From: an uncultured Nitrospiraceae bacterium
Lineage (GTDB): Bacteria; Nitrospirota; Thermodesulfovibrionia; Thermodesulfovibrionales; Thermodesulfovibrionaceae
Assembly: GCA_937139565.1 (NCBI GenBank)
Contig: CAKZQH010000053.1
Location: 1-54,914 of the forward strand
Direction: 5' to 3'
Length of the DNA stretch: 54,914 bases
The position numbers and the translations under genes are program-made. Position 1 is the first letter of the stretch. Each line of letters starts with the position of its first letter. Below the pieces are notes generated by a model that did no database searches, was not told where the DNA came from, and was given only the letters and a program-made list of their open reading frames with translations. Positions 981 through 53,991 of the stretch are shown piece by piece.

Positions 981-995
981 CGTCTTAAACATTGT

Positions 996-2264: not shown

Positions 2265-2390
2265 TGTCAACTAAACGCCTTTCTTCAAAAATAATCTCTT
2301 CGAAATAGTATTTTTTTCTCATAATAATTGACAAAAAGGGCAACCATCTTTTAAAGCCTGCTGATCTAAATCTAATATATAAATCTTCTC
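2265..2390 (-). repeat. Dispersed ~110-bp repeat, inverted copy of 36655-36765
   Basis: The reverse complement of this stretch is highly similar to 36655-36765. Shared blocks include AAAGATGGTTGCCCTTTT and TCGAAGAGATTATTTTTGAA, and both end in an outward-facing TTGACA (2265-2270 here). At this site no gene follows the TTGACA. The bases between this repeat and the TIR element (2391-2570), and the stretch 2010-2264, hold nothing I recognise. Confidence 0.7.
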
Positions 2391-2570
2391 ATAGGAAGTT
2401 ATCTAAATGGTTATTCGTATCCCAAAGGAGTATTCCAAATGAGAGGGAGATTTATCGTTATCGTAGCGCAAAAATGCACAGATTTTAAGAGCAGTTTATA
2501 GAAATTTCATTGACTTACAAATTTTATCTGACAAAGTCAGGTACTAATGCTAAAAGTTAGATTAATTTCA

Positions 2571-3382
2571 ACCCGACTTCATTAATTGAGGGCATATTTT
2601 ATTAAAAAAAACTAAATATTTCAGAGACTTATATTTTCCTTTCCCACCTAATGTAGTCTACTATCTTTCGTACTTTTCAAAGCCAATTTTTCCTTACTTT
2701 GTTTACTAATATCAAAAATCTTTACCTGTAAAACTTAAATCAAAAGATGAATACTATCTCCGTTGATTTCTGGTTTTAATCCATTTTATTCTACATATAA
2801 TCTTTATGCTATGAGGGTATCATGATTAACAAAAGACAAGGTTCTAATGAGATTGGTAAAGGATAGAGAGAGCTATGAGGGAGAGAATAAAAGCAGGAAG
2901 GGGATCTCTGATAACATAGCGTATGAATTTTGTCACTTTGAGCCTCTCTATGAGGCAAAGCAGTTTCTATGTAAGGCCTACGAAGAGGCGACTACGAGAT
3001 TGCTTCGCTGGCGCTCGCAATGACGACAAAAGAAAATCCTCGCAATGACATCCTTCTTTTGTCACTGCGAGGCCACTAAGTGGCCGTGGCAGTCTCAAAG
3101 ACCAACGGAATGAGATCCATTCGTCGCTTGCGCTCCTCGCTATGACATAAAAAGAAAATCCTCGCAATGACAGAAAGGGGGAGAGGTTCTAATTGCAAGA
3201 ATAGAGCAGAACAAAGAGAGATGATCAGATTCGCAAATGAGATAACAAGGCAGGAGGAAAATATAGACATTTAGAGAAAAATCGGATGGTTTAAAAATAG
3301 CTCAGAAGGCATGTAGACTAATCTTTAGATGATAACTCATTGATTTACAGTGGTTTTTAAGTTCCTAGTGATGAAGTTGGGT
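2571..3382. mobile_element. Decayed TIR element, copy A
   Basis: The left end (ACCCGACTTCATTA, 2571-2584) and right end (TGATGAAGTTGGGT, 3369-3382) are inverted repeats matching at 12 of 14 positions. The whole unit is repeated at 35777-36655, and its core again at 45905-46533. Inside are scrambled short frames and a cluster of palindromic repeats. On both sides of that cluster the word GGTTCTAAT occurs, as if the cluster had inserted into it. I see no intact transposase, so it is either a dead insertion sequence or a non-autonomous element. Bases 3383-3674, between this element and the next gene, show only relic-like short frames. Confidence 0.7.
2932..3186. repeat. Cluster of 'TCACTGCGAGG' palindromic repeats (in copy A)
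   Basis: There are several units of the form TCAyTGCGAG-hairpin-GnAGTCTC in alternating orientation. One example is the GGCCAC/GTGGCC hairpin near 3070-3085. The same unit family occurs at 30551-30850, 36134-36455 and 46014-46425. Short open frames in this region are translations of the repeats. Confidence 0.75.
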
Positions 3383-3674
3383 AATATGAAACAAAAAGCC
3401 AATCACGATGCTTATTTGCTTTGTGGACTTAAGGATTGGATAAGTAGTAAAATCAGAAAATATTTGCGGTGAAAGGCCATTAATCAATGCAAAAGGGGCT
3501 AAAGGAAGAGAGGACAGCTAAAAGATTTTTCTCTAAACATTTTAAGAGTTTTAATGAAATATAGACTAGTTAAAAAGATTCTTGGAGTGACAAAAATTGG
3601 GAGATATATATCAACAAGAATAGTAAGAAATTTTTAAAAATGAAATTAAAACATAAAAAAATAAAGGTGAAATT

Positions 3675-9465: not shown

Positions 9466-10947
9466 TTAGTGCTTATAAATGCTCTGGCTTCTTATCCTTA
9501 CAGGTAAAACTCCAGTTGCTCTTGATAAGCCTTCAGAGAGGTAATCTAAAAAAGCATAAACAGCCATTTCATTTGAATCGTACAATAAAACAATCGTGTC
9601 TATCCTTTTAGAAAGTTCAAAGTTTGTAACATAAGGATTACCAAAGGATACAAATATTGAATTTTTATTTTCCTTGATAATTTTATAAATTATCGCCTTT
9701 TCCTCCTCTTTTAGAGAGTAGCTTTGTCCTGCTGCTCTTATGTCTGTAAAAGCTGCAATAAGGGGAATTTTACCGGTTTTTTTATATTCCATCAGGTCAT
9801 AGGCCGAATCAAAGGTATATCTGAATATCTCAAATATGCTCTGAGTATAGTTTCCAACAAGATAGGGAATTATCTTACGATTCTGCAAGTCTTCTATTCT
9901 ATTTCTTATAACTGTTACAGACCTTTTAAAAGCTTGTTTCACAATAAAAGGTATTTCTTCAGAAGATTCCTCAATTGAATCCTTATCTTCAAGAGTCAAT
10001 TTTATTCTAAATTTATCTATTTTCTCTTTTGCCTCTTTGATTCTTTCTTCATTTATTAATCCTCTTTCATAAGCCTCTCCTATTTCATTAGAGGCTTTGT
10101 AAGGGTTCTCGGGATGAAGTATTATATCAGCACCAGCTTTTAGCGCTAATGCATGAGGATTATTATATGCTGATAGCGCTTTCATGTTCATGGCATCGGT
10201 GAGTACCAATCCTTTGAATCGGATTTTTTTTCTTAAAAGTTCCTTTATTGCCCATTCAGAAAGACTGGCGGGATAGTTGTCTTCAACTGGTATGCTTATG
10301 TGACCGACCATTATTGCTGAAACCTCTGCTTTTACTGCTTGTCTAAAGGGTTTAAGATGAAGATTAAGCCTGTCTGTAAGATAGGGTAAATCTAAATGAG
10401 AGTCTACAGAAACACCGCCATGTCCGGGAAAGTGCTTTCCGCAGGTTGGAAGCCCTTGTGATTGAAAGAAATTTATGATAAAACTTCCGTATTCTGATAC
10501 AACCTTTGGATTATCTGAAAATGACCTTGTGCATATTATGGGATTTTTTGGTTCTGTATTTACGTCAAGAACAGGAATAAGGGCGAGATTTATCCCCACA
10601 TCCCTTGCTTCTTTTATAACAATAGAATAAAGCTTTTCAAGTTCGTCACAGTCCTGTGGTAACTTAAATCCAGCTCTTATTGCCATCTGGCAAGGAATAA
10701 TTGTTCCACCTTTTATTTGCTGTCCTACACCTCTTTCTATATCAGAAGCAATTATAAGTGTCTTTGATGAGATACTCTGAATATGGGAAAGGAAATCTTT
10801 TACTTTCTCGTATTCACCACCGAAAATAATAAATCCTGCGATACCTTCTTCAACGAGTTTTATGATGTAATCTCTGTATGAGGAGTCTTCAATCCTATCT
10901 CCGTCAAGCCTTGCAATAATTAGATTTAAAAAACTTTTCCTTATCAT
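9466..10947 (-). CDS. nagZ: Glycoside hydrolase family 3, beta-N-acetylhexosaminidase
   Basis: NagZ-like enzymes cleave beta-1,4-GlcNAc from peptidoglycan fragments during wall recycling. The 493-residue protein has the GH3 barrel with FIIFGGEY, IASDIERG, the signature GKHFPGHGGVSVDSHLDLP and the nucleophile Asp in LVLTDAMNMKAL. It also has a C-terminal domain of about 150 residues, making it longer than the single-domain NagZ of E. coli and like the two-domain Gram-positive type. No signal peptide is seen. The start lacks a Shine-Dalgarno; instead a promoter ends 8 bases before ATG, so the mRNA is probably leaderless. Confidence 0.88.
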   Translation of the reverse strand: MIRKSFLNLIIARLDGDRIEDSSYRDYIIKLVEEGIAGFIIFGGEYEKVKDFLSHIQSISSKTLIIASDIERGVGQQIKGGTIIPCQMAIRAGFKLPQDCDELEKLYSIVIKEARDVGINLALIPVLDVNTEPKNPIICTRSFSDNPKVVSEYGSFIINFFQSQGLPTCGKHFPGHGGVSVDSHLDLPYLTDRLNLHLKPFRQAVKAEVSAIMVGHISIPVEDNYPASLSEWAIKELLRKKIRFKGLVLTDAMNMKALSAYNNPHALALKAGADIILHPENPYKASNEIGEAYERGLINEERIKEAKEKIDKFRIKLTLEDKDSIEESSEEIPFIVKQAFKRSVTVIRNRIEDLQNRKIIPYLVGNYTQSIFEIFRYTFDSAYDLMEYKKTGKIPLIAAFTDIRAAGQSYSLKEEEKAIIYKIIKENKNSIFVSFGNPYVTNFELSKRIDTIVLLYDSNEMAVYAFLDYLSEGLSRATGVLPVRIRSQSIYKH

Positions 10948-10955
10948 AGAATATT

Positions 10956-10985
10956 ATTATGAATTATTGAAGCGAAAGGATTCAA
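10956..10985 (-). promoter_or_regulatory. Promoter of nagZ, probably leaderless
   Basis: On the minus strand TTGAAT (10985-10980), an 18-bp spacer and CATAAT (10961-10956) lie 8 nt before the start ATG (10947-10945). There is no purine-rich ribosome binding site between them. Confidence 0.55.
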
Positions 10986-11058: not shown

Positions 11059-11178
<120 letters not shown>

Positions 11179-14188: not shown

Positions 14189-16558
14189 TTAAATATTTCT
14201 AAGGCGAAGCCTAAGAGAATTAGTTACAACCGACACAGAACTTAGACTCATGGCAAAAGAGGCAATCATTGGATTAAGAAGAGGACCTCCAAATATATAA
14301 AGAGCACCAGCTGCAACAGGAATACTCAGAACATTGTAAATAAATGCCCAGAAAAGATTCTCCTTTATGGTGCGAAGTGTTAGTTTGTTTAGCCTTATAA
14401 GCCTTGGGATTCCCTTGAGCCCGCCGCTCATAAGGGTTATATCAGCTGCATGAATGGCAATGTCTGTGCCACTTCCCATTGCAATTCCAATATTTGCCTC
14501 TGCAAAAGAAGGAGCATCATTTATTCCATCTCCGATCATGCCAACTATTTTTCTCTCTTCAATTCGGTATTTTCTTACAATTCGGGCTTTTTCTTGGGGA
14601 AGCATATCAGAGTAGTATATTCTAATTCCAAGTTTTTCTGCCACATAGGATGTTACCTCTTTGTTGTCACCGGTTAAAATAACCACTTCAATTCCCATTT
14701 TTTTGAGGCTTTCTACTATTTCAAAGGCCTCCTTTCTGATTGTATCACTTATATAAAAAACTCCTTTTATTTCATCATCAAAGAATACATAGACATGGGT
14801 TGATGGGTCATTTAAACCTATCTCAGGAAGAGTGATGCCTCTTTTAGACATAAATTTACCGCTACCTATTAGCACTTCTTTTTCCCATTCGTTCGGAATG
14901 GCAACTTTTGCTTTAATACCTCCTCCTGGGATTATCTGAAAACTTAATGGTTCTCTTCCATATATACCCTCTCTCGCACAGTACCTAAGAATTGCCTTTC
15001 CAAGAGGATGTTCAGAGTATTTTTCAGCAGAAGCGACAATATAAAGCAGTTCCTCCTTTTCAATATTAAAAAGATCAACTCTAGTTACCTCTGGCTGTCC
15101 CTCCGTAAGAGTGCCTGTTTTATCCATAAAGAGAATATTAAGATTTCCAGCTTCCTCTAATTTCTCAATGTTTCTGATAAGAATTCCCTCACGAGCAGCC
15201 CTTCCTGTTGCAACCATTATGGCTGTAGGAGTTGCAAGTCCAAGAGCACACGGGCAGGCAACAATAAGAACAGCTATGCTGTTTTGAATCGCTATAGAGA
15301 GTTCTCCCTGAAGAAAATACCATAAAGAAAAGGTAATAATGGCAATTAACAGCACAGTAGGAACAAAGATAGATGAAATTTTATCAGCAAGTCGCTGTAC
15401 AGGAGGCTTGCCTTTTTGAGCATCTTCAATTAATTTTATTATCTGGCTTAAAAGGGATTCTTTACCTACTGCTTTTGCTTGAACTTTTAATACACCTGAA
15501 CGCAAAAGAGTTCCTCCAATTACTCTGTCACCGGAAGATTTATCTATAGGAATAGATTCTCCAGTAATCATTGACTCATCTACGCTTCCATAGCCTTCTA
15601 AGATAAGTCCATCAACAGGTATTTTTTCACTCTGCTTTATAATTACTACATCACCTGGCATGACTTCTTGAATACTTATCTCTTTTTCTTTTCCATCTCT
15701 TATCACCGTTGCTTTTTTTGGTTGAATTTCCACAAGTCTCTTTATTGCGTCAGAGGTTCTTTCTTTGGCTTTTTCTTCAAGGGTCCTACCAAAAAGTATT
15801 AGGGTAATTATTACTGCGGATGTTTCAAAATAAAAATGATGGCCATTTTGAAATAAAAGACCAAAAAGGCTATAAAAATAGGCTGCATTTGTTCCAATGC
15901 TTATTAGAGTGTTCATATTTGTTGAGCCATGTTTAAAAGCAATTAGAGCATTTCGATGAAATCTCCATCCAATAATAAATTGCACAGGAGTTGCTAAGAG
16001 AAATTGAACAAAACCATTTCCTAAAATAGGAAGATGAAACATGCTTCCAAGAAATAGCGGGAAGGTAAAGATTAGACTAAAAATTAATTCTCTTTTTATT
16101 TTTCTTATGGCTTTTTTCTTTTCCTCTTCAATTTGATAAGTTTCTGTGTATTTTTCTCCTTTTATACCTAAGGCTTTAAGAGAGGAGAGTATTTTTTCCT
16201 CCTCAACAATAGTAGATAAGTATTTAATCTCAAGGGTTTTTCCTATTATGTCTGATTTTATTTCTGTGATACCCTCTATCTCTAAAAGCTTGCTCTCAAT
16301 CAGTCTTACCAGTTCAGAATCAATTTCTTGTATTTGAAGATAAAGGTTTCTTTGACCAAAGTCATATCCTGTTGCCCTAATTACGCTCAATAGCCGGGAT
16401 ATTTTTAAAGGTTCTTCAGCTATAATAATAGCCTTTTCTGTAAGAAGATTAACAGAGGCTTCTTTTACACCCTCTACCTTTTTTAATGCTCTCTCAATGG
16501 CCTGAGCACAGGCAGAACAGGTCATTCCTTTGATAGGTATTTCAATGGTTCGCTCCAC
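14189..16558 (-). CDS. copA: Cu+-exporting P1B-type ATPase
   Basis: CopA exports cytoplasmic Cu+ using ATP. The 789-residue protein has an N-terminal heavy-metal-associated domain with GMTCSAC (Cys14, Cys17), then a second HMA-like region without the CxxC pair (about 75-135). The transmembrane core carries the CPC motif in VACPCALGLATPT (about 433). DKTGTLTEG holds the phosphorylated Asp (about 478), GDGINDAP is near 674, and NLFWAFIYNVLSIP and MSLSSVSVVTNS are the P1B-1 copper signatures of the last helices. The start is GTG, 8 nt after a -10-like box with no Shine-Dalgarno. No CopZ or CsoR/CueR is visible nearby. Confidence 0.95.
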   Translation of the reverse strand: MERTIEIPIKGMTCSACAQAIERALKKVEGVKEASVNLLTEKAIIIAEEPLKISRLLSVIRATGYDFGQRNLYLQIQEIDSELVRLIESKLLEIEGITEIKSDIIGKTLEIKYLSTIVEEEKILSSLKALGIKGEKYTETYQIEEEKKKAIRKIKRELIFSLIFTFPLFLGSMFHLPILGNGFVQFLLATPVQFIIGWRFHRNALIAFKHGSTNMNTLISIGTNAAYFYSLFGLLFQNGHHFYFETSAVIITLILFGRTLEEKAKERTSDAIKRLVEIQPKKATVIRDGKEKEISIQEVMPGDVVIIKQSEKIPVDGLILEGYGSVDESMITGESIPIDKSSGDRVIGGTLLRSGVLKVQAKAVGKESLLSQIIKLIEDAQKGKPPVQRLADKISSIFVPTVLLIAIITFSLWYFLQGELSIAIQNSIAVLIVACPCALGLATPTAIMVATGRAAREGILIRNIEKLEEAGNLNILFMDKTGTLTEGQPEVTRVDLFNIEKEELLYIVASAEKYSEHPLGKAILRYCAREGIYGREPLSFQIIPGGGIKAKVAIPNEWEKEVLIGSGKFMSKRGITLPEIGLNDPSTHVYVFFDDEIKGVFYISDTIRKEAFEIVESLKKMGIEVVILTGDNKEVTSYVAEKLGIRIYYSDMLPQEKARIVRKYRIEERKIVGMIGDGINDAPSFAEANIGIAMGSGTDIAIHAADITLMSGGLKGIPRLIRLNKLTLRTIKENLFWAFIYNVLSIPVAAGALYIFGGPLLNPMIASFAMSLSSVSVVTNSLRLRLRNI

Positions 16559-16566
16559 TTTTCTTA

Positions 16567-16610
16567 TTTTTACCTTATGAGATGTTAAGTGTCAAATTTT
16601 ATGATATAAT
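16567..16610. promoter_or_regulatory. Overlapping divergent promoters of copA (minus) and the SapC-like gene (plus)
   Basis: Minus strand: TTGACA (16595-16590), a 17-bp spacer and TAAAAA (16572-16567), 8 nt before the copA GTG. Plus strand: extended -10 TGATATAAT (16602-16610), 27 nt before the SapC-like ATG, which has a GGAGG ribosome binding site at about 16629-16633. The two boxes interleave, so the genes may compete for RNA polymerase. Confidence 0.55.
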
Positions 16611-16637
16611 TGAAAAACTGCATTTTTCGGAGGTAAG

Positions 16638-17327
16638 ATGAGAGCCATTATGAAAGCCTTTAAAAAGGCTGTTGCTTTAGATAGTCATGTGCATAGAAAT
16701 CTAAAGGTTAGAATGCCAGATAACTTTGATTTTATGAAAGATGTGGAAATTGTACCTCTTACCTATTCGGAAATTTTAGCTGCAACCATGTATTACCCAG
16801 TTTTATTTGGAATTCAGGAAGGAGGCGTTTTTCCCTTTGCAGTGATTGGCATTAACAATAGAAATGTTTTCTTAGAGGAAGAAGGGCATTGGAAGGTGGA
16901 TGTTATTCCAAATGTTTGTAAATACTTTCCCTTTGGAATTCTAAAAGATAAGGATGAATACACAATAATTTTTGATGAAAGATATGCAAACAATGATGGC
17001 CAGAGAGTGTTTGATGATGATGGAAGCGATACAGAATTTTTTTCTAAGATTAAAGCTGGGCTTACAGAGCTTGCAAGAGACTTTTATGATGCTGAGGAAC
17101 TCTCCAGAGAGCTTTTTGAAAATGGATATCTTAAACCCTTCAACCTCGATGTAGAGACAAAAGTAGGGAAAATGAAATTTAACAATGTATATATGGCAAA
17201 CTTAGAAAATCTCTCTTCTACTTTGCCTGAAAAATTGTACACTCTGAATGCAAACGGTTCGCTTTTAATCCTTCATGCCCATTACTTGAGCCTTAGAAAC
17301 TTTAAGCTTTTTAATATTTTTGCATAG
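16638..17327 (+). CDS. SapC-family protein
   Basis: This 229-residue protein matches the SapC family layout: an early HVHRNLKVR, then VPLTYSEILAATMYYPVLF, the FPFAVIGI strand, HWKVDVIPNVCKYFPFGI, an acidic loop DDDGSDTEF, and LSSTLPEKLYTLNANGSLLILHAHYLSLRNF at the end. The family takes its name from a Campylobacter S-layer-associated protein, but the biochemical role is not established. There is no signal peptide. The start has TCGGAGGTAAG upstream. Its 3' end overlaps the convergent glycosyltransferase gene by 63 bp. Adjacency to copA looks positional rather than functional. Confidence 0.75.
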   Translation: MRAIMKAFKKAVALDSHVHRNLKVRMPDNFDFMKDVEIVPLTYSEILAATMYYPVLFGIQEGGVFPFAVIGINNRNVFLEEEGHWKVDVIPNVCKYFPFGILKDKDEYTIIFDERYANNDGQRVFDDDGSDTEFFSKIKAGLTELARDFYDAEELSRELFENGYLKPFNLDVETKVGKMKFNNVYMANLENLSSTLPEKLYTLNANGSLLILHAHYLSLRNFKLFNIFA

Positions 17328-18122
17328 CAGTCTTTCAATTTCATATATTAGAAATTTTTTATCCAGGCATTTTAATTCCTTGCAAATACTGGGAAAACAG
17401 GGCAGACAACTGTTATCCCTTATTACAAAGAGATTTTCTCCAATTGGATGCCATATTACAGGGTCGGTTGGGCCAAAAATAACAACTGAGGGAACTCCTA
17501 AATATGAGCTTAAATGGCTTACTCCACTATCCAGACCAATATAAAGGGAGGCTTTTAAAAGATTTTTTGCCAAGTCAAGAACATTATTAACAAAAAGAGA
17601 TTTTATGAAAAAATTACCTTGCCTTTCTTCTGCAGGTCCAATAATATATAAGGTATTAAAGCCCATTTTTTTAAGAATTTTGTCCAGTTCAAGGAAAAAG
17701 TCAATCTCAGGATTCTTCTTTTTTGAACCACTACCTGGATGAATAATACAAAGAGACGAATTCTTTTTAGTTTTAATGCCTATATTTAAAATTTTTGAAA
17801 ACTCTTCTCCTTCTAAATTCAAAGATTTAAGATAATAATCGATGATCCATATTTTTTCCCTTACAAAAGGATCAACAAATATGGTTTTATCTGAGGAACT
17901 AAAAGTTTCTCTATCTGCAGAGAAAATTATTCTTAAATCAAAGTGTTCTTTTGGTTCATAGAAGGTCACTTTATTGCAAAATCCTGCAATTTTGGCAAGG
18001 CTAAAGTATTCACTATTACCCCATACTGTTAAATGGTAGCCTCTTTTTTTCAATATCTCTAAAACCGGATAGACAAGAAGGCTATCTCCCAAGCCACCCA
18101 TGCGATAAATTAAAATTTTCAT
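17265..18122 (-). CDS. Glycosyltransferase family 9 (heptosyltransferase-like)
   Basis: GT9 enzymes add heptose or related sugars to the LPS core on the cytoplasmic face of the inner membrane. The 285-residue protein has the N-terminal donor-fold start MKILIYRMGGLGDSLLVYPVLEIL. The C-terminal donor-binding motif is IGLDSGVSHLSSYLGVPSVVIFGPTDP, followed by the Cys-containing NSCLPCFP segment. It is shorter than WaaC/WaaF (about 320-350 residues), so the exact acceptor and sugar are open. Its start codon lies only 16 bp from that of the divergent RACo gene. Confidence 0.85.
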   Translation of the reverse strand: MKILIYRMGGLGDSLLVYPVLEILKKRGYHLTVWGNSEYFSLAKIAGFCNKVTFYEPKEHFDLRIIFSADRETFSSSDKTIFVDPFVREKIWIIDYYLKSLNLEGEEFSKILNIGIKTKKNSSLCIIHPGSGSKKKNPEIDFFLELDKILKKMGFNTLYIIGPAEERQGNFFIKSLFVNNVLDLAKNLLKASLYIGLDSGVSHLSSYLGVPSVVIFGPTDPVIWHPIGENLFVIRDNSCLPCFPSICKELKCLDKKFLIYEIERLLCKNIKKLKVSKAQVMGMKD

Positions 18123-18124
18123 GA

Positions 18125-18157
18125 TATAATTTTAAATCATGCCCAAAATAAGAACAA
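18125..18157. promoter_or_regulatory. Overlapping divergent promoters of GT9 and RACo genes
   Basis: Plus strand: extended -10 TGATATAAT (18122-18130), 8 nt before the RACo ATG at 18139. Minus strand: TTGTTC (18157-18152), a 17-bp spacer and TAAAAT (18134-18129), 6 nt before the GT9 ATG. Neither gene has a Shine-Dalgarno, and each promoter runs through the other gene's start region. Confidence 0.55.
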
Positions 18158-21092: not shown

Positions 21093-22142
21093 TTAGTTCC
21101 TTATGGCTCTGTAAAATACAAACGAAAGAAATCCCACAATAACAACCGGCGATAGTGCACCAACTTCAGCTGGTACAAATCCTGCCTTTGAGAGATTTGC
21201 TCCATATATCATAAGAACATAATAAAGTGCAAAAACAGCAAACCCTACTGTAATTCCCCCGAGTCTTCCACTTCTTCCTATTATCCTACAAAGGGTGGGA
21301 GCTAAAAAAACACTAATTATGCATAGAATAGGTAGAGAAACTCTTTTATAAAGCTCCAATTTGTAATCTATCTTTTTTTCATTTGATATCTTGGATAAAA
21401 GCTCAAAAAGGGAAAGTTCTGTATTTTTTTTAGCTATGGGATCTATATTGGGAGTCAGCATAAAAATATATTCCTTGAAGCTTACTTCATTAAGGGATGC
21501 TCCCCTGTTAAAATAAGCCTTTCCATTAATTAGGCTTAGGCTTATATTTTCCTTCTCCTTTTTTATTCTCCCCTCATTAGCCATGATTAGTTTACTGTCT
21601 TCCTTTCTTTCATCGAATATAACCACATCCCTCAAATGCATATTGTCTTTTTTTTCTCTTACAAAGATAGTAATTCCTTTAAATCCTTGATTAAAAACAC
21701 CCTCCTCTATACCAAGAGGAGCTCTTTCTGAGAGTATAGTAAGAACCTTTTCTCTCACCAAACTAATGCCTACAGGAGCAAGATAAAAACTCATAATTAG
21801 AGTTAATAAAAAAGAAATTAATCCCAAATATAAAGCAGGCTTGAATGCTTTTTTATAAGGCATACCGCTTACCATAAAAATAGTCATTTCATTGTCAGTT
21901 TGCATTCTTCCGTAAGTAAGCAGAACACCCATTAAAATAGCCATAGGAACGGTAAACACAAATAACTGAGGTTGAAGAAGAATCACTAAAAGAGAGAGAT
22001 TTAACAAATCTATTCCAACAGCGGAAAAAACCTTGCTTAATTTCATTAATTTTTCTATGACCAGTATGGCATTTAAAAAGGCTATTGAGAGAAGCATATT
22101 TTGAAGTAACTCTCGAATAATAGCCCTATAGATAATTTGCAT
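21093..22142 (-). CDS. lptF: LPS export permease LptF (YjgP/YjgQ family)
   Basis: This is the first of the two paralogous Lpt permeases (349 residues). It starts MQIIYRAIIRELLQNMLLSIAFLNAIL, has the conserved PMAILMGVLLTYGRMQTDNEM segment after the second helix, a periplasmic beta domain around 150-250, and three C-terminal helices. Its ATG overlaps the kdsD stop (TAATG), so LPS-core precursor synthesis (kdsD) and LPS export (lptFG) are translationally coupled. Confidence 0.87.
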   Translation of the reverse strand: MQIIYRAIIRELLQNMLLSIAFLNAILVIEKLMKLSKVFSAVGIDLLNLSLLVILLQPQLFVFTVPMAILMGVLLTYGRMQTDNEMTIFMVSGMPYKKAFKPALYLGLISFLLTLIMSFYLAPVGISLVREKVLTILSERAPLGIEEGVFNQGFKGITIFVREKKDNMHLRDVVIFDERKEDSKLIMANEGRIKKEKENISLSLINGKAYFNRGASLNEVSFKEYIFMLTPNIDPIAKKNTELSLFELLSKISNEKKIDYKLELYKRVSLPILCIISVFLAPTLCRIIGRSGRLGGITVGFAVFALYYVLMIYGANLSKAGFVPAEVGALSPVVIVGFLSFVFYRAIRN

Positions 22143-23131
22143 TAAAAAATTCCCTTTTTAAGAATATCGTGGATATGAATAATACCTCTGAGGGTTCCAT
22201 CAATCCCTGGAACAATTAGGCTAGTTATTGAATATCTTTGCATCATAGAAAGGGCTGACGCAGCTAATTCTTCTTCTCCGATCGTTTTTGGATTTTTGGT
22301 CATTATATCCAGAGCCTTAAGCTCGAAAAACTCTTTACCCCAACGCTGAACACCTCTTCTAACATCTCCATCTGTGATTATTCCAAGAACCTTCCTTTCT
22401 CTATCTACCACAACAACCACACCCAATCTTTTAGAAGAAATCTCAAGTACTGCATCGAGCATGATAGTATCTGGAGAGCAGATAGGAAGGGCCTCTCCAG
22501 TCTGCATGAGATCTTTTACCTTTGTAAGCATTCTTCTTCCAAGGGAACCGCCAGGATGGAAAAAAGCAAAGTCTTCCTTTTTAAAGCCATTTCGCAAAAT
22601 AAGACAAACTGCAAGCGCATCACCCATAGCAAGAGTAGCGGTAGTTGATGCAGTGGGTATGAAACCAAAAGGACAGGCTTCTTCCTCAACGGAAATGTCA
22701 AGAACCACATCTGCTTGCTTAGCGAGAGTTGAATCTGGATTTCCTGTTATGGCAATAAGCTTCACATTAAAATATTTGAGAAAAGGAATAAGCCTAACAA
22801 GCTCATCTGTCTCGCCACTATTTGATATGGCTATTACCACATCGTCTTCAGTAACCATTCCAAGGTCTCCATGACTTGCTTCGGCAGGATGCATAAAAAA
22901 TGAAGGTGTACCCGTAGATGCAAGAGTAGCTGCTATTTTTCTTCCCACAAGTCCAGATTTACCCATTCCTGTAACAACAACTCTTCCTTTTGAACTGTGA
23001 ATAATCTCCACAGCTCGCAAAAAATTCTCATTTATTCGGTCTTTTAGATTATCCACAGATTTAGCTTCGATAGTAAGTACTTTCTTTGCTAAATCAATAA
23101 GATTTTCTCTGTATTTAGGATCACAGCTCAT
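22142..23131 (-). CDS. kdsD: Arabinose-5-phosphate isomerase (KpsF/GutQ/KdsD family)
   Basis: KdsD converts ribulose 5-phosphate to arabinose 5-phosphate, the first step to Kdo in the LPS inner core. The 329 residues comprise an N-terminal SIS domain (GRVVVTGMGKSGLVGRKIAATLASTG, about 51-76; HPAEASHGDLGM; AISNSGETDEL) and two C-terminal CBS domains (about 205-329, with TDGDVRR in the first). The promoter TTGAAT-18-TAAAAT (23168-23139, minus strand) ends 7 nt before ATG with no Shine-Dalgarno, again pointing to a leaderless message heading kdsD-lptF-lptG. Confidence 0.92.
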   Translation of the reverse strand: MSCDPKYRENLIDLAKKVLTIEAKSVDNLKDRINENFLRAVEIIHSSKGRVVVTGMGKSGLVGRKIAATLASTGTPSFFMHPAEASHGDLGMVTEDDVVIAISNSGETDELVRLIPFLKYFNVKLIAITGNPDSTLAKQADVVLDISVEEEACPFGFIPTASTTATLAMGDALAVCLILRNGFKKEDFAFFHPGGSLGRRMLTKVKDLMQTGEALPICSPDTIMLDAVLEISSKRLGVVVVVDRERKVLGIITDGDVRRGVQRWGKEFFELKALDIMTKNPKTIGEEELAASALSMMQRYSITSLIVPGIDGTLRGIIHIHDILKKGIF

Positions 23132-23138
23132 GAAATTT

Positions 23139-23168
23139 ATTTTAAGTTAGGCAGGCAATTTAATTCAA
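23139..23168 (-). promoter_or_regulatory. Promoter of kdsD-lptF-lptG
   Basis: TTGAAT (23168-23163), an 18-bp spacer and TAAAAT (23144-23139), 7 nt before the kdsD ATG. No ribosome binding site lies in the short gap. Confidence 0.5.
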
Positions 23169-23817: not shown

Positions 23818-23826
23818 TGTTATACT
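23818..23826 (+). promoter_or_regulatory. Extended -10 promoter of hisA-hisF, leaderless
   Basis: TGTTATACT (23818-23826) is an extended -10. The hisA ATG begins at 23832, five bases later, so transcription would start at or beside the start codon. I find no good -35 at the usual spacing. Confidence 0.5.
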
Positions 23827-23831
23827 AAAAA

Positions 23832-24560
23832 ATGTACATAATTCCAGCCATTGACCTCAAAAATGGCAAATGTGTAAGACTTCGTCAAGGAAAATTTGAT
23901 GAGATGACAGTGTATTTCGACAATCCTGCTGATGCAGCTAAAAAATGGCAAGATGAGGGCGCAGAGATATTACATGTTGTTGACCTTGATGGAGCAAAGG
24001 ATGGAAAACCAGTAAATCTATCTGCCATAGAAAAAATAAGAGAAGCTTTTAATGGAAGCATTGAAGTTGGCGGCGGTATAAGAAATTTTGAGACCCTAAA
24101 AACACTCCTTAACATTGGAATAGATAGAGCCATACTTGGAACCATAGCAGTTGAGAATCCTGAATTTGTAAGGAAGTCCGCAGAGCAGTTTCCAAATAAA
24201 ATTATAGTAGGAATTGATGCAAAGGACGGTTATGTAGCCGTAAAGGGATGGGTTGAGATTACAAAGATAAAAGCCACAGAACTTGCCTTAAAACTCCAAG
24301 ATTATGGGATATGGGGAGTTATTTATACAGATATTTCAAGAGATGGTATGCTTACAGGACCTAACATTAAGACAACTGAGGAGATGGTGCAATCCTTAAG
24401 TATTCCTGTAATAGCCTCTGGTGGAGTTTCTTCTCTTGAGGACATTCTCAATCTCAAAATGATAAAAGGCCTGTGGGGTGCAATCACAGGTAAAGCTATC
24501 TACGAGGGCAGAATAAACTTGAGAGAAGCAATAAAAACCGCTAAAATGGGGACTCACTAA
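23832..24560 (+). CDS. hisA: ProFAR isomerase (phosphoribosylformimino-5-aminoimidazole carboxamide ribotide isomerase)
   Basis: HisA opens the ribose ring of ProFAR in histidine synthesis. The 242-residue beta/alpha barrel shows the catalytic Asp8 in [17 protein letters not shown], both phosphate-binding loops (EVGGGIRN and ASGGVSS), and the second Asp in [14 protein letters not shown]. It is followed one base later by hisF, so the two consecutive barrel enzymes are coupled. The rest of the his pathway is not in the window. Confidence 0.96.
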
Positions 24561-24561: not shown

Positions 24562-25398
24562 ATGCTTGCAAAAAGAATAATACCCTGCTTAGATGTAAAG
24601 GATGGAAGAGTTGTAAAGGGAGTTAATTTTCTTAATCTAAGGGATGCAGGAGACCCTGTTGAGAATGCCCTTTACTACGATGATGAAGAAGCCGATGAGC
24701 TTGTTTTTCTTGATGTAACAGCTTCCCACGAAAAGAGAAAGATAATTATCGATGTGGTTGAAAGGACTGCTTCTGTAGTTTTTATGCCCCTTACAGTTGG
24801 AGGAGGAATAAAAACAATTGATGACATAAGAGATCTCCTAAATGCTGGTGCAGACAAGGTTTCAATAAATACAACCGCGGTAAAGAATCCCTACTTTATT
24901 CAACAGGCATCATCGAGATTTGGTTCTCAGTGTATAGTAATTGCCATAGATGCAAAAAGAGTGGACAAAAATTTTAATCCAAAATCCTATACTCCTGAAT
25001 CTTGGTTTGAAGACGCAGAACTTAAAAGTGTGCTTTATAACGAAAATACAAAATTTGTCCTCTCGACTCACGGTGGAAGGCTTATGAGACCCATTGATGC
25101 AGTGGCATGGGCAAAAAAAATGGAAGCCCTTGGTGCTGGTGAGATTCTTCTTACTAGTATGGACAGAGATGGCACAAAAGAGGGTTATGATATTGAACTT
25201 ACCAAAGCAATATCTGAAGCAGTAAACATTCCCGTAATTGCATCGGGCGGTGCAGGCACCCTTGAGCATCTTTATGAAGCCTTTGCACTGGGAGGAGCAG
25301 ATGCAGCACTGGCAGCCTCTATATTTCACTTTCGAGAGTATTCGGTGCGAGAGACTAAGGAATTTTTGAAACAAAAGGGTATATCCGTACGAATATAA
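24562..25398 (+). CDS. hisF: Imidazole glycerol phosphate synthase cyclase subunit
   Basis: HisF is the cyclase half of IGP synthase; with HisH it yields IGP and AICAR. Catalytic Asp11 lies in [15 protein letters not shown] and Asp in [15 protein letters not shown]. Phosphate loops are VGGGIKT and ASGGAGT. At 278 residues it is about 25 longer than typical HisF. The extra segment lies between IDAKRVD and the STHGGR motif (about residues 134-160) and is mostly polar. The hisH partner is not adjacent. The 3' end carries a TATAAT that probably serves the next gene. Confidence 0.95.
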
Positions 25399-25399
25399 T
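25394..25399 (+). promoter_or_regulatory. -10 box for the radical SAM gene, overlapping the hisF stop
   Basis: TATAAT at 25394-25399 includes the hisF stop codon and lies 10 nt before the next ATG, which lacks a Shine-Dalgarno. I found no convincing -35, so this is tentative; read-through from hisA is the alternative. Confidence 0.35.
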
Positions 25400-25409
25400 A
25401 TAAATTTTC

Positions 25410-26678
25410 ATGAAACCTGAAAGACTATCAGTAGAGATTACAACAAGATGCAATCTAAAGTGTGAAATTTGTCCCAAGCAAAGCCCCAATTATCATCAAT
25501 TAGAAATGGACATGAGTCTTGAAACTTTTAAAAAACTTATTCCTCTCATGCCATCGCTAAAGAGCATTGTTTTAAGTGGCATAGGAGAGCCCCTTGTTCA
25601 TCCCTATTTGGAAGATTTAATCTCTCTTTGCAAAAAATACATGGAGCCACACACATCAATTGGCTTTCAGACCAATGGAGTTTTGCTTACTGAGGAAAAA
25701 ATGTCTGAGCTTATCCGAGCGGGACTTAATAAAATATGTGTATCCATTGATAGTTTAGTTCCTATAAAGGGTCTTCACGAACCCGTCTTTGCTGAAAGAG
25801 CTCTTGAAATCATAGCAAGAGAGAAGAAAAATGGCGCAGTGAGATTGCAAAGTGGTATTGAAATAGTAATAACAAAGGAAAATATAGATCAGATAATTCA
25901 AACTATACTTAAGGCAATGGAATACAAAATAGACTTCGTCATTATCTCTCACCTAATCCCCTATTCACCTGAAGCTGCCGATGCAGTAGCCTATGAGACA
26001 AACAATAAAGAAGCGGTGAGAGTATTCAAAAAATGGCTCACCAAGCTAATTGATAAAGGCTATTCCATTGACTTTTGGTTAGAACAAATGAAAAAGAAAG
26101 CCCTTCCGGAATTTTTTCCTCACGAAAGTGAACCTCTAAAACTTTTTAAAGGAATGTATGATGAAGCTGCTAAAAAAGGAATAACTTTAAATTTAAACAG
26201 TCTTATTGGGCGACAGGATAATCTTCTGAATGAAGTAGAAAAGATTCTTAATGAAGTTTCATTTTTAAGCCAAAAATTAAATCTTCAGATTCAGATTCCT
26301 TCAACAAATCCCGATCCCAAAAGAAAATGCGATTTTTTGGAAGAAAAATGCCTTTTTATAGGAGTAGATGGTGAGGTCTCACCCTGTTATTTTCTCTGGC
26401 ATAGCTTTACCTGTTATATCTCAGGATTAAAAAAATCCGTAAAAAGATGGTCCTTTGGAAATATTAACCAGATGGAACCTTTAGACATATACAACTCCAT
26501 TGAATATAAAAAATTCGTATCTTCGGTTCTTAAATATGACTTTCCTTATTGCTATGACTGCAATTTTGCTCTATGCGATCTCATGGAACTTGAAGATTTC
26601 CTTTATGACTGTTACACAAATTATGTGCCGTGCGGAGCCTGTCTATGGTGTGGTGGATTATTTTACTGTATGATATAA
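25410..26678 (+). CDS. Radical SAM/SPASM-like protein paired with AOR (Cmo-type maturase)
   Basis: The 422-residue protein has the radical SAM cluster motif CNLKCEIC (Cys14, Cys18, Cys21), GIGEPLVHPYLEDLI for AdoMet binding and VSIDS. A Cys-rich C-terminus (about 305-422; CDFLEEKC, FPYCYDCNFALC, VPCGACLWCGGLFYC) resembles SPASM auxiliary clusters. Proteins of this type sit next to tungsten-dependent aldehyde ferredoxin oxidoreductase genes (the Cmo family) and are thought to modify or insert the pterin cofactor. The AOR gene starts 36 bp downstream, which supports that role. The biochemical activity itself is inferred. Confidence 0.85.
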   Translation: MKPERLSVEITTRCNLKCEICPKQSPNYHQLEMDMSLETFKKLIPLMPSLKSIVLSGIGEPLVHPYLEDLISLCKKYMEPHTSIGFQTNGVLLTEEKMSELIRAGLNKICVSIDSLVPIKGLHEPVFAERALEIIAREKKNGAVRLQSGIEIVITKENIDQIIQTILKAMEYKIDFVIISHLIPYSPEAADAVAYETNNKEAVRVFKKWLTKLIDKGYSIDFWLEQMKKKALPEFFPHESEPLKLFKGMYDEAAKKGITLNLNSLIGRQDNLLNEVEKILNEVSFLSQKLNLQIQIPSTNPDPKRKCDFLEEKCLFIGVDGEVSPCYFLWHSFTCYISGLKKSVKRWSFGNINQMEPLDIYNSIEYKKFVSSVLKYDFPYCYDCNFALCDLMELEDFLYDCYTNYVPCGACLWCGGLFYCMI

Positions 26679-26679
26679 T
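26671..26679 (+). promoter_or_regulatory. Extended -10 promoter of the AOR gene
   Basis: TGATATAAT (26671-26679) spans the stop codon of the radical SAM gene. It is the same nine-base string seen before the SapC-like and RACo genes. The AOR ATG is 35 nt further, with a GGGGGTAGG ribosome binding site. Confidence 0.5.
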
Positions 26680-26714
26680 TGAAAATAATTTTTAAAAACA
26701 AAAGGGGGTAGGTT

Positions 26715-28445
26715 ATGAAAATTTTAAGAGTTAACATGAGTGAAGACACGCCAATGGTAAAGGTAGAGGAGATTGGTAGCTACGAAGGACTGGGTGGAAG
26801 AGGCCTCACATCAGCCATAGTGTCTAAAGAAGTAGATCCCCTTTGTCATCCACTAAGTGCAGACAATAAGCTTGTAATCGCTCCAGGACTTTTAGGTGGA
26901 ACTGCAGCTGCTATGTCTGGAAGATTATCGGTAGGCTGCAAAAGTCCACTTACAGGAACTATTAAAGAAGCAAATGCAGGTGGACAGGCTGGACAAGTTA
27001 TGGCTAGGTTAGGATATGCTGCTATTGTGCTTGAGGGAAAACCTAAGGGAGATGATATTTATAAAATCTGTATAAATAAAGATGGTGTGAAGGTTATAAA
27101 GGACAATTCTCTTAAAATGCTTCCAAATTATGAGCTTGTGGAGCGAATGAAAGGAGAATTTGGAGAAAAAATTGCTTGCATAAGCATAGGTCCTGCTGGA
27201 GAGATGAAGTTAGCTGGTGCTTCAGTGGCTGTTACTGATATGGAACTTCGACCAACAAGACATGCAGGCAGAGGCGGTGTTGGAGCTGTTATGGGATCAA
27301 AGGGCATAAAAGTTATTGTTCTCGATGATACTGGAACTACACCAAGACAGCCAAAAGATCCAGAGGCTTTTAAAGAAGCAAACAAAAAGTTCGTTATGGG
27401 ACTTCAGAAACATCCTGTAACAGGGCAAGGACTTCCAGCTTATGGAACAAATGTTCTTACAAACATAATAAATGAAGTTGGCGCTTATCCAACCTATAAC
27501 TTCAAAGAAGGACGCTTTGCAGGAGCAAGAAAAATAAGCGGAGAAGTGCAAGCTGAACTTGAAAAGCAAAGAGGAGGAAATCCAACCCATGGTTGTCATC
27601 GTGGTTGTGTTATTCGCTGTTCTGGCATTTATCACGATAAGGATGGTCATTATCTTACAAAACAACCAGAGTATGAGACTGTGTGGGCACTGGGCGGAAA
27701 CTGTGGCATAGATGATATAGATAAAATTGCCTATATGGATTTCTTATGTGATAACTTTGGAGTTGATACCATAGAAATGGGTGTAACAATTGGAGTTGCC
27801 ATGGAAGCAGGTCTCATTAAATGGGGCGATGCAGATGGAGCAATTGAACTTTTAAATGAAATCGGAAAGGGAAGTTATCTAGGCAGAATCATAGGTAATG
27901 GAGCAGCCTATACTGGTAGAGCCTTTGGTGTAGATAGAGTACCTGTTGTTAAAGGGCAGGCACTTCCAGCTTATGATCCGCGAGCAGTTCAAGGAATAGG
28001 GGTCACATATGCTACAAGCACAATGGGCGCTGATCATACTGCTGGTTATTCTATTGCTCTTAATGTGCTTAAAACAGGTGGCTTTGTTGATCCTCTTAAA
28101 CCAGAGGGACAGGTTGATCTATCAAGAAATCTCCAAATTGCTACAGCCTTTATAGATTCAACTGGAATGTGTATTTTCATTGCTTTTGCTCTACTTGATC
28201 AACCTGAAACAAATAGTGCTTTAGTTGAAATGCTTAATAGTTTCTATGGCTGGAACATGACAGATAAGGATGTGGTTGAGTATGGAAAGAAAGTTCTTAA
28301 ATTTGAAAGGGATTTTAATTTAAAAGCTGGATTTACAAAAGAACACGATAGATTGCCCAAATTTTTCTACAGAGAACCCATTCCACCTCATAACACGGTA
28401 TTTATGGTTAAAGATGAGGAACTTGATCAATTATTCAACTGGTAA
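26715..28445 (+). CDS. Tungsten-dependent aldehyde ferredoxin oxidoreductase family protein
   Basis: AOR-family enzymes carry a bis-pterin W (or Mo) centre and one 4Fe-4S cluster and oxidise aldehydes to acids with ferredoxin. The 576-residue protein starts MKILRVNMSEDTPMVK, with GLGGRGLTSAIV and the pterin-binding AMSGRLSVGCKSPLTGT and GRGGVGAVMGSKG. Cluster cysteines are Cys294, Cys298 and Cys302 in GCHRGCVIRC, plus Cys486 in STGMCIF. The neighbouring radical SAM protein and MoaD-like protein point to a dedicated cofactor set. Which aldehyde it uses cannot be told; it could equally be one of the uncharacterised AOR subfamilies. Confidence 0.9.
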   Translation: MKILRVNMSEDTPMVKVEEIGSYEGLGGRGLTSAIVSKEVDPLCHPLSADNKLVIAPGLLGGTAAAMSGRLSVGCKSPLTGTIKEANAGGQAGQVMARLGYAAIVLEGKPKGDDIYKICINKDGVKVIKDNSLKMLPNYELVERMKGEFGEKIACISIGPAGEMKLAGASVAVTDMELRPTRHAGRGGVGAVMGSKGIKVIVLDDTGTTPRQPKDPEAFKEANKKFVMGLQKHPVTGQGLPAYGTNVLTNIINEVGAYPTYNFKEGRFAGARKISGEVQAELEKQRGGNPTHGCHRGCVIRCSGIYHDKDGHYLTKQPEYETVWALGGNCGIDDIDKIAYMDFLCDNFGVDTIEMGVTIGVAMEAGLIKWGDADGAIELLNEIGKGSYLGRIIGNGAAYTGRAFGVDRVPVVKGQALPAYDPRAVQGIGVTYATSTMGADHTAGYSIALNVLKTGGFVDPLKPEGQVDLSRNLQIATAFIDSTGMCIFIAFALLDQPETNSALVEMLNSFYGWNMTDKDVVEYGKKVLKFERDFNLKAGFTKEHDRLPKFFYREPIPPHNTVFMVKDEELDQLFNW

Positions 28446-48788: not shown

Positions 48789-49445
48789 CTAAATGATTGA
48801 AAGTATGGTATAGAAAAGTTTGACTAAAGGCAAAACAAATAATTTCGTAAGACCCGTAACTATCATTAATATTACAATTATAGAACCATAGGGTTCAATT
48901 CTTTCCATAAACTCGGAATATTTGATAGGTAGCACTCCCATCAGAATTCTTCCGCCATCAAGAGGTGGTATAGGTATAAGATTAAATGCAGCGAGAACTA
49001 TGTTAATCATAATAGTGGCTTTGAGTATAAGTAAAAGGGGATTCAGTATAAAAACTGGGATTACACCCATAAATGGAAGAATTAACCATTTAAGAATAAT
49101 AGTGCAAACTATGGCTACAAGAAGATTTGCAACTGGGCCACCTAAGGCTGTAAGAGCCATTCCTGCCCTCGGATTTTTAAAATTATAGGGATTTACAGGC
49201 ACAGGTTTAGCATATCCAAAAATCCATTGTCCACTTGTAAAAATTAGTAACATCAGAGGCATTATGATCGTACCAAAGGGATCTATATGGGAGATGGGGT
49301 TAAGGGTAAGCCTTCCCTCATATTTTGCCGTATTATCTCCAAGTTTATGAGCAACCCAACCATGGGCAAGCTCGTGAAAAACTATTGCTACAAGAATTGC
49401 AGGAGCTGAAATTATTATTTGTCGAAAAATTTCAGTAAAATCCAC
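48789..49445 (-). CDS. Site-2 protease family membrane metalloprotease (M50)
   Basis: The 218-residue intramembrane zinc protease has HEXXH in VIVFHELAHGWVAHKLGD (about 20-37) and the third ligand motif NLIPIPPLDGGRIL (about 157-170), with five to six membrane helices. It is the short YwhC-like form without a PDZ domain, so RseP-type sigma signalling is not implied. The start is GTG, sharing one base with the pycB stop (TAGTG). The substrate is unknown. Confidence 0.9.
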   Translation of the reverse strand: MDFTEIFRQIIISAPAILVAIVFHELAHGWVAHKLGDNTAKYEGRLTLNPISHIDPFGTIIMPLMLLIFTSGQWIFGYAKPVPVNPYNFKNPRAGMALTALGGPVANLLVAIVCTIILKWLILPFMGVIPVFILNPLLLILKATIMINIVLAAFNLIPIPPLDGGRILMGVLPIKYSEFMERIEPYGSIIVILMIVTGLTKLFVLPLVKLFYTILSII

Positions 49446-51268
49446 TATTTAACCCTAATCATTACTTCGTCTGGATTGACCATGTCGCCTTCTTTTACAA
49501 ATATTTCATCTACAGTGCCGTCAATAGGAGCATGGATTTCATTCTCCATTTTCATAGCTTCTACTATGACAACTGTATCTCCTGCTGAGATTTTATCGCC
49601 TTTTTTCACTTTTATTTTTACTACTGTGCCTGGCATTGGTGATGTGATATCTCCCGGCTCAGATGCTCGTGGTCTAACAGATTCCTTTGGTTTTATCTCT
49701 ACTTTGCCTTCTTCGCTCGGAACAATTTCCTGTAGAGGTTCAACGATAACCTCTACAAGTTGATTGTTTACATATAAGAAATAGGGCCTTTTACCATCAA
49801 CTTTATGTCCTTTACCTCCGACTTTTACATGATATGATTCACCGTAAAGATTGATGACAAACTCAGTGGGTGCAAGGGAAGTTGAAGGCTTAACTTCCTC
49901 CTTTTTGACTGGCACTATCTCTTCTTTGATGCCTTTTTCTTTTGCTTCAAGATACTCAAGATAAACTTTTGGGAAAAGGGTATAACTAAGCAGGTCTTCT
50001 TCTGTTGGAGCTTTATCTTTAATTTCTGCTTTTGCTTTTTCAAGTTCTGGCTCAAGTAAATCAGCTGGTCTGCAAGTGATGAATTCTTCTTCACCAAGAA
50101 TTTTTTTTCTCACCTCTTCATTTACAGCAACAGGCGGCTTGCCATAGAGTCCTTTAAAATAGTTCTTTGTTTCAGTGGTAACCATCTTGTATCGTTCGCC
50201 CGTGAGAACATTCAGGGTTGCCTGTGTTCCAACTATTTGACTTGAGGGAGTAACAAGAGGTGGAAATCCAAAATCTTCTCTGACCCTTGGAATTTCTTCC
50301 ATCACTTCCTTTATTCGATGAAGGGCATTTTGTTCCCTTAATTGGTTAACGAGGTTACTTAGCATTCCTCCAGGAACTTGATATACAATTACTTTTGGAT
50401 CAGGACCAAGATATTCGCTTTCAAGAGCTTTATATTTTTTCCTTACCTCATAGAAATAATCTGCAATTTCATCTAAGAGTTCCATATTGAATTTGGGGTC
50501 TCTCTCTGTGTCTTTCAAAATATGACATACTGTTTCAAGGGGTGGCTGGGATGTTCCTCCAGCCATAGTTGAGATGGCTGTATCAACAATATCTACGCCG
50601 GCTTCGATTGCCTTGATAGTTGTTGCAACAGCTAATCCTGCCGTATCGTGGGTGTGAAGATGAATTGGAAGGTCTATCTCACTTTTAAGTCTTGCTACTA
50701 ATTCATAAGCTGTATATGGATCAAGAAGACCGGCCATATCTTTTATACAAATTATATGAGCGCCCATATCTCTCAGTTTTTTTGCAAGCTCTACAAAATA
50801 ATCTATTGTATAAATTGGACCTATAGTATAACAAAAGGCTGCTTCAACAGTGCCTCCATATTTTCTTGTGGCTTGAATGGATTTTTCCATGTTTCGTAAA
50901 TCATTTAAAGCATCAAATATTCTCAGGATGTCTATTCCATTTTCTATGGTTTTTTCTACAAATTTTTCAACTACATCATCAGCATAGTGCCTATAACCAA
51001 CAAGGTTCTGCCCTCTAAGAAGCATCTGAAGCTTTGTATTTTTTACGAGTGAGCGAATTGTCCTTAATCTTTCCCATGGATCCTCTCTTAAAAATCTAAG
51101 ACAGGAATCAAAAGTAGCACCACCCCAAACTTCAAGAGAATGAAATCCTACTTGATCCATTTTTTCTGCTATTGGAACAATGTCCTCGAGCTTCATTCTT
51201 GTGGCATGAAGGCTTTGATGGGCATCTCTAAAGGTTGTATCCATAATTTTTACTGGAGATTTTGACAT
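49445..51268 (-). CDS. pycB: Pyruvate carboxylase subunit B (carboxyltransferase plus biotin carrier)
   Basis: The 607-residue protein has the carboxyltransferase barrel with [36 protein letters not shown], the carboxylated Lys region [14 protein letters not shown] and [14 protein letters not shown] conserved PYC_OADA domain follows, then a C-terminal biotinyl domain with EAMKMENEI (biotinyl Lys at about 574). The sequence alone does not separate this subunit from oxaloacetate decarboxylase alpha. The biotin carboxylase gene directly upstream, and the absence of oadB/oadG, favour two-subunit pyruvate carboxylase making oxaloacetate. Start by GAGGTG. Confidence 0.92.
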
Positions 51269-52880: not shown

Positions 52881-52909
52881 TTGATTGGAGCTTTGGTGGA
52901 TGTTATAAT
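52881..52909 (+). promoter_or_regulatory. Near-consensus promoter giving a leaderless mqnE transcript
   Basis: TTGATT (52881-52886), a 17-bp spacer and a perfect TATAAT (52904-52909) stand 8 nt before the mqnE ATG (52918). Transcription would therefore start within a few bases of the start codon. There is no Shine-Dalgarno. This is the clearest leaderless case in the window. Confidence 0.75.
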
Positions 52910-52917
52910 AAGCTTTG

Positions 52918-53991
52918 ATGCTCAGAGAGATTAGAAGAAAGGTAGAAAATGGAGAGAGAATAACAGATAAAGAGGCTCTTTTTCTTTTTAATTCAGAGGA
53001 TATTCATACCCTCGGTGAGCTAGCAGATGCAGTATCAAAAAGAATTAATGAAAACAAGGCCTATTTTATCAGAAACATTCATATAAATCTGACAAATCTT
53101 TGCATTAATCGCTGTCGTTTTTGTGCATTCTCATGCTCTAAGGATGATCCTGGAGCTTATGAAATGTCTTTGAAAGAAGTGATTGAAAAGATTAGAGTTG
53201 CGCAAAGAGACATGGGAGAATTAAGGGAGGTTCATATTGTTTCAGGCCTTCATCCCTATTGGAGTTTTGATTATTATTTGGAGATTATAAAAACGATAAA
53301 AAAAGAGTTCCCTCAGCTTGGAATAAAGGCTTTCACTGCTGTTGAAGTTGATTATTTTGCAAAAATTTCAGGCTTATCTGTTAAAGATGTCCTTTCAAAG
53401 CTCAAAGAAAGCGGAGTTGATATTATGCCTGGCGGAGGTGCAGAAATATTTTCAAAGAGAGTAAGAGATAAGATATGTCCTGAGAAAATTTCTGGAGAAA
53501 GGTGGCTTGAAATTATCAGAACTGCCCATAAACTTGGAATAAAGACTAACGCCACCATGCTTTATGGTCACGTAGAGTCCTATGAAGACCGAATTGAACA
53601 CCTAATTAAACTTAGAGAGCTTCAAGATGAAACTGGAGGCTTTCTGTCTTTTATTCCTCTTAGCTATCAACCTGAAAATACTGAAATAAAAACGCCTTTT
53701 CCCTCTGGGGTGGATGATATAAAAACAATAGCTATTTCAAGGCTTGTTCTTGATAACATCCCACACATTAAGGCTTATTGGATAATGTTAGGCGAAAAAT
53801 TAGCCCAGATTGCTTTACTTTTTGGTGCAGACTGTCTTGAGGGAACGGTAATTGAGGAGAAAATTGCTCACTCAGCAGGTGCTCGGTCAAAAAAGGGAAG
53901 GAGTTTAGAAGAGCTTATAAACTCTATCAGAGAAACAGGAAAGATTCCAGTTGAAAGAGATACCTTTTACAACTGGGTAAGAATATGGTGA
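52918..53991 (+). CDS. mqnE: Aminofutalosine synthase (futalosine menaquinone pathway)
   Basis: MqnE is a radical SAM enzyme joining 3-[(1-carboxyvinyl)oxy]benzoate to the adenosyl radical. The 357-residue protein has the cluster motif CINRCRFC (Cys62, Cys66, Cys69) after NIHINLTNL, HIVSGLHPYWSFDYYLE, and MPGGGAEIFSKRVRDKICPEK, typical of MqnE. It is followed by mqnC with a small overlap. I use ATG 52918; TTG 52915 would add one residue. The distinction from CofH/CofG relatives rests on these motifs and the mqnC neighbour. Confidence 0.93.
   Translation: MLREIRRKVENGERITDKEALFLFNSEDIHTLGELADAVSKRINENKAYFIRNIHINLTNLCINRCRFCAFSCSKDDPGAYEMSLKEVIEKIRVAQRDMGELREVHIVSGLHPYWSFDYYLEIIKTIKKEFPQLGIKAFTAVEVDYFAKISGLSVKDVLSKLKESGVDIMPGGGAEIFSKRVRDKICPEKISGERWLEIIRTAHKLGIKTNATMLYGHVESYEDRIEHLIKLRELQDETGGFLSFIPLSYQPENTEIKTPFPSGVDDIKTIAISRLVLDNIPHIKAYWIMLGEKLAQIALLFGADCLEGTVIEEKIAHSAGARSKKGRSLEELINSIRETGKIPVERDTFYNWVRIW

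Follow-up and report, generated by a model that had tools for sequence, protein, structure and literature searches.

Candidate leaderless promoters in a genome of the Thermodesulfovibrionales (Nitrospirota) and the conservation of their spacing in related genera

The window, i.e., the whole stretch of 54,914 nucleotides that was analysed, belongs to an assembly of 1.99 Mb in 113 contigs, with a GC content of 36% in the portion read. Judged by mqnE, the closest named relatives are members of Thermodesulfovibrio (69–70% identity), which places the organism in that genus or near it within Nitrospirota. A first-pass annotation of the window had proposed that at least seven genes carry a -10 box directly before the start codon and lack a Shine–Dalgarno (SD) site. 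They are listed in Table 1. Each of the seven promoter and start strings is found exactly once as written, upstream of the gene named and on its strand, and the gene names agree with NCBIfam and Pfam: MqnE, a GH3/NagZ-like protein, a copper P-type ATPase, KdsD, a family 9 glycosyltransferase, a corrinoid activator of the RACo/AcsV type and HisA. The arrangement is convincing for six of them. The case of copA is weak, because its box, TAAAAA, has no T at position 6 and the start codon is GTG; on present evidence this gene should not be counted. A radical SAM gene, already put forward as a weaker case, proved to be as weak as claimed, with its box at spacer 10, and perhaps has a very short leader. 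Few convincing open reading frames occur over the first 3.6 kb of the window (1-3600). A 5S rRNA gene is located at 11060-11176 on the minus strand, between nagZ and 11216-13363, and no match to 16S or 23S rRNA was reported in the window.

Table 1. Predicted leaderless promoters, weak cases and leadered contrasts in the window.
Feature	Positions	Strand	Promoter, spacing and gene
mqnE, predicted leaderless promoter	52881..52920	+	TTGATT-17-TATAAT-8-ATG; gene 52918-53991; MqnE by TIGR03700
hisA, predicted leaderless promoter	23818..23834	+	Extended -10 TGTTATACT-5-ATG; gene 23832-24560
RACo (AcsV-like), predicted leaderless promoter	18122..18141	+	TGATATAAT-8-ATG; gene 18139-19941
GT9 glycosyltransferase, predicted leaderless promoter	18120..18157	-	TTGTTC-17-TAAAAT-6-ATG; gene 17265-18122
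nagZ-like (GH3), predicted leaderless promoter	10945..10985	-	TTGAAT-18-CATAAT-8-ATG; gene 9466-10947
kdsD, predicted leaderless promoter	23129..23168	-	TTGAAT-18-TAAAAT-7-ATG; gene 22142-23131
copA, proposed leaderless promoter, weak	16556..16595	-	TTGACA-17-TAAAAA-8-GTG; gene 14189-16558
Radical SAM gene, weak case	25394..25412	+	TATAAT 10 nt before ATG; gene 25410-26678
Contrast, leadered gene	16602..16640	+	TGATATAAT 27 nt upstream of ATG, GGAGG SD between; gene 16638-17327
Contrast, leadered gene	26671..26717	+	TGATATAAT 35 nt upstream of ATG, G-rich SD-like stretch between; gene 26715-28445

Within the window, the leaderless type is represented by hisA, RACo, GT9 and mqnE, and the leadered type by the genes at 16638 and 26715, where the order is box, SD site, ATG. 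Not all candidates stand at the head of a divergent pair: nagZ lies downstream of the 5S rRNA gene on the same strand, and kdsD follows a same-strand gene after 45 nt. The divergent genes GT9 and RACo have their start codons at a distance of 16 nt, and their -10 boxes overlap in a nearly palindromic sequence (CATGATATAATTTTAAATCATG). At this distance, any transcription start within the gap leaves a leader of less than 16 nt. Use of one of the two promoters probably precludes use of the other.

The genome-wide analysis covered 1.08 Mb in stretches, i.e., 54% of the genome. Genes were called ad hoc on dicodon coding potential alone, so that the choice of start was not influenced by promoter or SD sequences, and were classed by their upstream neighbour as divergent, same-strand-far or operon-internal. 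A box was defined as a hexamer with at most one mismatch to TATAAT, A2 and T6 being obligatory, at a spacer of 5–9 nt to the start, and an SD site as at least 4 nt of AAGGAGGTGA. The 16S 3′ end (GGATCACCTCCTTT) was searched for in the assembly and gave no match; the enrichment of SD sites implies that the anti-SD sequence is intact.

A peak of TATAAT 8–14 nt before the starts of first genes, named in the first-pass annotation as the check on its proposal, is present genome-wide. Of the 150 divergent genes, 34 are box-positive, versus 28 of the 508 genes internal to operons (Fisher p = 7e-9). Under a first-order Markov model built on these upstream regions, 6.4% of divergent genes would be expected to carry a box (binomial p = 1e-10). 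The per-spacer count in divergent genes peaks at 5, 6 and 8. In a count that does not rely on the gene caller, exact TATAAT-Nk-ATG before an open reading frame of at least 80 codons occurs on average 10.3 times per spacer for k = 5–8 versus 4.4 times for k = 12–60, while the same count at ATGs without a reading frame has no spacing peak. When all hexamers are counted at the box position of first genes without an SD site, TATAAT ranks first, with 22 occurrences versus 0.9 expected. The promoter logo reads TGnTATAAT, with T and G at positions -3 and -2 as counted from the box and a weak TT(G) approximately 24 nt upstream of it. Taking divergent and same-strand-far genes together, the box is present in 15.4% versus a background of 7.3%, a modest ratio of signal to background in an AT-rich genome. 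Leaderless transcription, claimed to be common, would concern about 20% of divergent first genes and about 5–9% of all called genes; the box-positive share of first and internal genes is 79/856 (about 9%) before chance is subtracted, and it varies with the box definition and with imperfect start calls. Divergent pairs less than 40 nt apart number 6 of 75 in this genome versus 0 of 25 in E. coli, which is suggestive, the pairs being too few to count.

The proposed split into two initiation modes is likewise seen, the two classes of starts being almost mutually exclusive in sequence. An SD site is present in 4 of 34 box-positive versus 64 of 116 box-negative divergent genes (p = 4e-6), and in 76% of the genes that have a box further upstream, 25–29 nt from the start. 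Box-positive first genes also use ATG more often (45/51 versus 190/297 of the box-negative ones; p = 5e-4). That operon-internal genes keep clear SD sites turned out to be a tendency (69% of 508) and no rule, since hisF of this genome has no SD site of 4 bases. SD-led initiation is still the main recognisable mode. Neither an SD site nor a box is found in 163 of the 348 first genes, of which 210 in total have no SD site; many of these 163 must be due to wrongly called starts, to boxes weaker than the definition allows or to a third class (leadered, non-SD). Among the 28 operon-internal genes with a box at 5–9 nt, just 7 have an SD site, and this group suggests possible internal leaderless promoters or split operons.

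In hisA and mqnE, the distance from box to start codon is kept from genus to genus while the flanks diverge. In hisA, a box is located 4–9 nt before the start in 25 of 30 orthologues across the order, versus 10.5% in shuffled upstream sequence; it mostly takes the form TGTTATATTAATn-ATG, and upstream of it the sequences of different genera are unrelated. The adjoining hisF served as the order-wide SD-led control, replacing the SD-led gene 49445-51268, which is present in few genera of the order. Its orthologues have a box in 0 of 23 and an SD site in 17 of 23 cases, the latter unlike hisF of this genome. A search of viral contigs for hisA gave no match. The mqnE box is kept in 32 of 54 loci placed in Nitrospirota by their record titles (two close relatives included), mostly at spacer 5, versus 0 of 23 loci from other phyla.

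The remaining candidates are conserved over a shorter range. For nagZ, a box at spacer 4–9 was counted in 12 of 19 orthologues and an SD site in 1 of 19. The former count is a lower bound, because several congeners (L329, L332 and L334) keep CATAAT about 10 nt from the ATG, just beyond the counting range; within the genus, the spacing is mostly conserved. The RACo/GT9 arrangement is near-identical in all five congeners examined, in which the GT9 promoter sequence is kept upstream of RACo. The RACo box is found in 11 of 30 orthologues in all and is mostly missing outside the genus. The kdsD box is kept in two congeners; most other genera have SD or other starts, with an SD site in about half of them. 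This distribution suggests that the start mode of kdsD can switch, perhaps with involvement of operon context.

To follow the signal through the phylum, 197 genomes were scanned, and in 39 of them the count of TATAAT-N5-8-ATG was divided by that of TATAAT-N21-24-ATG. This spacing control was preferred because a control with the reversed pattern, which differs in word composition, overstates the enrichment. The ratio is above 1 in every sampled member of the order, including the genome under study (213/148), G090 (75/16), G143 (127/34) and, with the lowest value, G153 (608/537). Three match-rich genomes from other classes have ratios close to 1 (G002, 239/231; G012, 351/366; G026, 292/298). For the other families of the phylum, counts are low and the ratios mixed, e.g., 46/19 in G040 and 73/64 in G005. 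The full pipeline gave a box excess in the congener G047, in G014 and in G090; for E. coli K-12, as for G026, it gave none. The Thermus plasmid pTT27, used as a positive control, had a TAnnnT excess of 0.226 versus 0.046. In G090, a member of the same order with 62% GC, the box is found in 17.6% versus 3.4%, a signal equal to or stronger than that of the genome under study, and the rarity of background TATAAT makes it the better-suited genome for studying the signal. Its divergent genes lie close together, with a median gap of 86 nt over 17 pairs (L271-L280). The order as a whole carries the signal, which is absent from E. coli and from one sampled genome of another class.

Taken together, these genes very probably give rise to leaderless or near-leaderless mRNAs from a -10 box 5–9 nt before the start, with no SD site. 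The promoters would be ordinary ones of the housekeeping sigma factor, often with an extended -10 (TGnTATAAT) and a weak -35. With the box at this distance from the start codon, RNA polymerase would be expected to start on the A of the ATG or within a few nucleotides of it, producing an mRNA that is leaderless or nearly so and has no SD site. Ribosome recruitment would then proceed by direct recognition of the 5′-terminal AUG, probably by a 70S ribosome or a particle loaded with IF2 and initiator tRNA. Operon-internal genes and genes with a promoter at least 25 nt upstream would mostly rely on SD-led initiation.

A possible, though clearly less probable, variant is that the -10 boxes are real and that transcription starts a few nucleotides upstream of the ATG, giving leaders of 2–6 nt, with translation proceeding as for leaderless mRNA. 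Spacers of 8–9 nt, as in RACo and mqnE of this genome, are in line with this variant, for the usual start would fall 2–3 nt before the ATG. The commonest spacers, however, are 5–6, which place +1 on the A of the ATG or at most 1 nt away, and hisA as well as most mqnE orthologues have a spacer of 5. A very short leader differs from none only in degree.

It is very improbable that the boxes are chance AT-rich words of a genome with 36% GC, found before genes that have no SD site and whose long leaders start at promoters further upstream. A chance box is indeed expected in about 6% of genes, given their AT-rich upstream regions, and first genes without an SD site are mostly box-less; still, the excess over the Markov expectation, the mutual exclusion with SD sites, the conservation across genera, the signal in the GC-rich G090 and its absence from G026 and E. 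coli refute this explanation in general. It may hold for single genes such as copA. Equally improbable is a role of the AT-rich element in translation, as an enhancer or non-SD ribosome-binding site that is unstructured or bound by S1. Such AT-rich signals are known from Bacteroides and the FCB group (PMC9581028), but they would be expected in first and operon-internal genes alike, whereas the box is concentrated in first genes and is a specific TGnTATAAT at fixed spacing with a weak -35. Least probable of all are misassigned start codons with true starts downstream, after an SD site: the ad hoc caller surely placed some starts wrongly, but mqnE, hisA, RACo, kdsD and nagZ are homologous to their relatives from the proposed start onwards, or from a position within a few residues of it.

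On the preferred reading of leaderless or near-leaderless mRNAs, about one-fifth of the genes that are clearly first in their transcripts seem to begin their mRNA at the start codon, with no ribosome-binding site. It is slightly favoured, on balance, that the whole class Thermodesulfovibrionia is an unrecognised lineage using leaderless mRNAs, in which the hisA and mqnE promoters have kept their spacing throughout an order. If so, whether a start is leaderless or SD-led would be specific to the gene and stable, with switches arising chiefly from altered operon context, as in kdsD. A Nitrospirota class with conserved leaderless promoters would be a separate addition to the lineages that use them, with a neighbouring class as contrast. 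The matter also touches gene-start annotation, as gene finders that rely on SD sites alone tend to misplace leaderless starts. The hisA and mqnE promoters are ready-made test cases.

Leaderless initiation in bacteria is discussed as an ancient mode; most of its documented cases come from Actinobacteria and Deinococcus-Thermus. GTG starts are frequent among the leaderless transcripts of Actinobacteria, unlike in the genome studied here, where 45 of the 51 box-positive first genes use ATG. Leaderless mRNA being a known mode of expression, what seems new is its predicted occurrence in a Nitrospirota lineage for which no earlier description was found. Literature on Nitrospirae, Nitrospirota, Thermodesulfovibrio and Leptospirillum yielded no description of leaderless genes, and the tables of GeneMarkS-2, which predicts leaderless transcription in 21.6% of bacterial species according to the account in PMC9581028, may cover such genomes and include Nitrospirota. 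Zheng et al. (2011) regarded TA-like boxes some 10 bp ahead of the start codon as indicating leaderless genes, the full TATAAT form being found in genomes of medium or low GC such as Aquifex and Lactococcus (PMC3160421). The signal described here is of the same class as that of their TA-led genes: a peaked -10-like box, absence of an SD site, enrichment at first genes and conserved spacing in orthologues are all found. Nitrospirae are not among the leaderless groups that they name, although a representative may be contained in their pooled row "Other Bacteria 8/20" (PMC3160421). As in Mycobacterium, where leaderless transcripts were described from mapped transcription starts and ribosome profiling (as outlined in PMC3898074 and PMC4633059), leaderless and SD-led transcripts would occur in one genome, here as predicted from sequence. 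A close parallel in arrangement is offered by the well-studied Deinococcus-Thermus, in which mqnE is a model leaderless gene (PMC12340547) and a TAnnnT "-10 motif adjacent to ORFs" precedes approximately 30–40% of the ORFs (PMC12340547, PMC3160421). Both have a -10 box a few nucleotides before the start and no SD site, in genes mixed with SD-led ones. Unlike the TAnnnT motif of that group, the box is here a complete TGnTATAAT, frequently accompanied by a discernible -35, and marks about 20% of divergent first genes.
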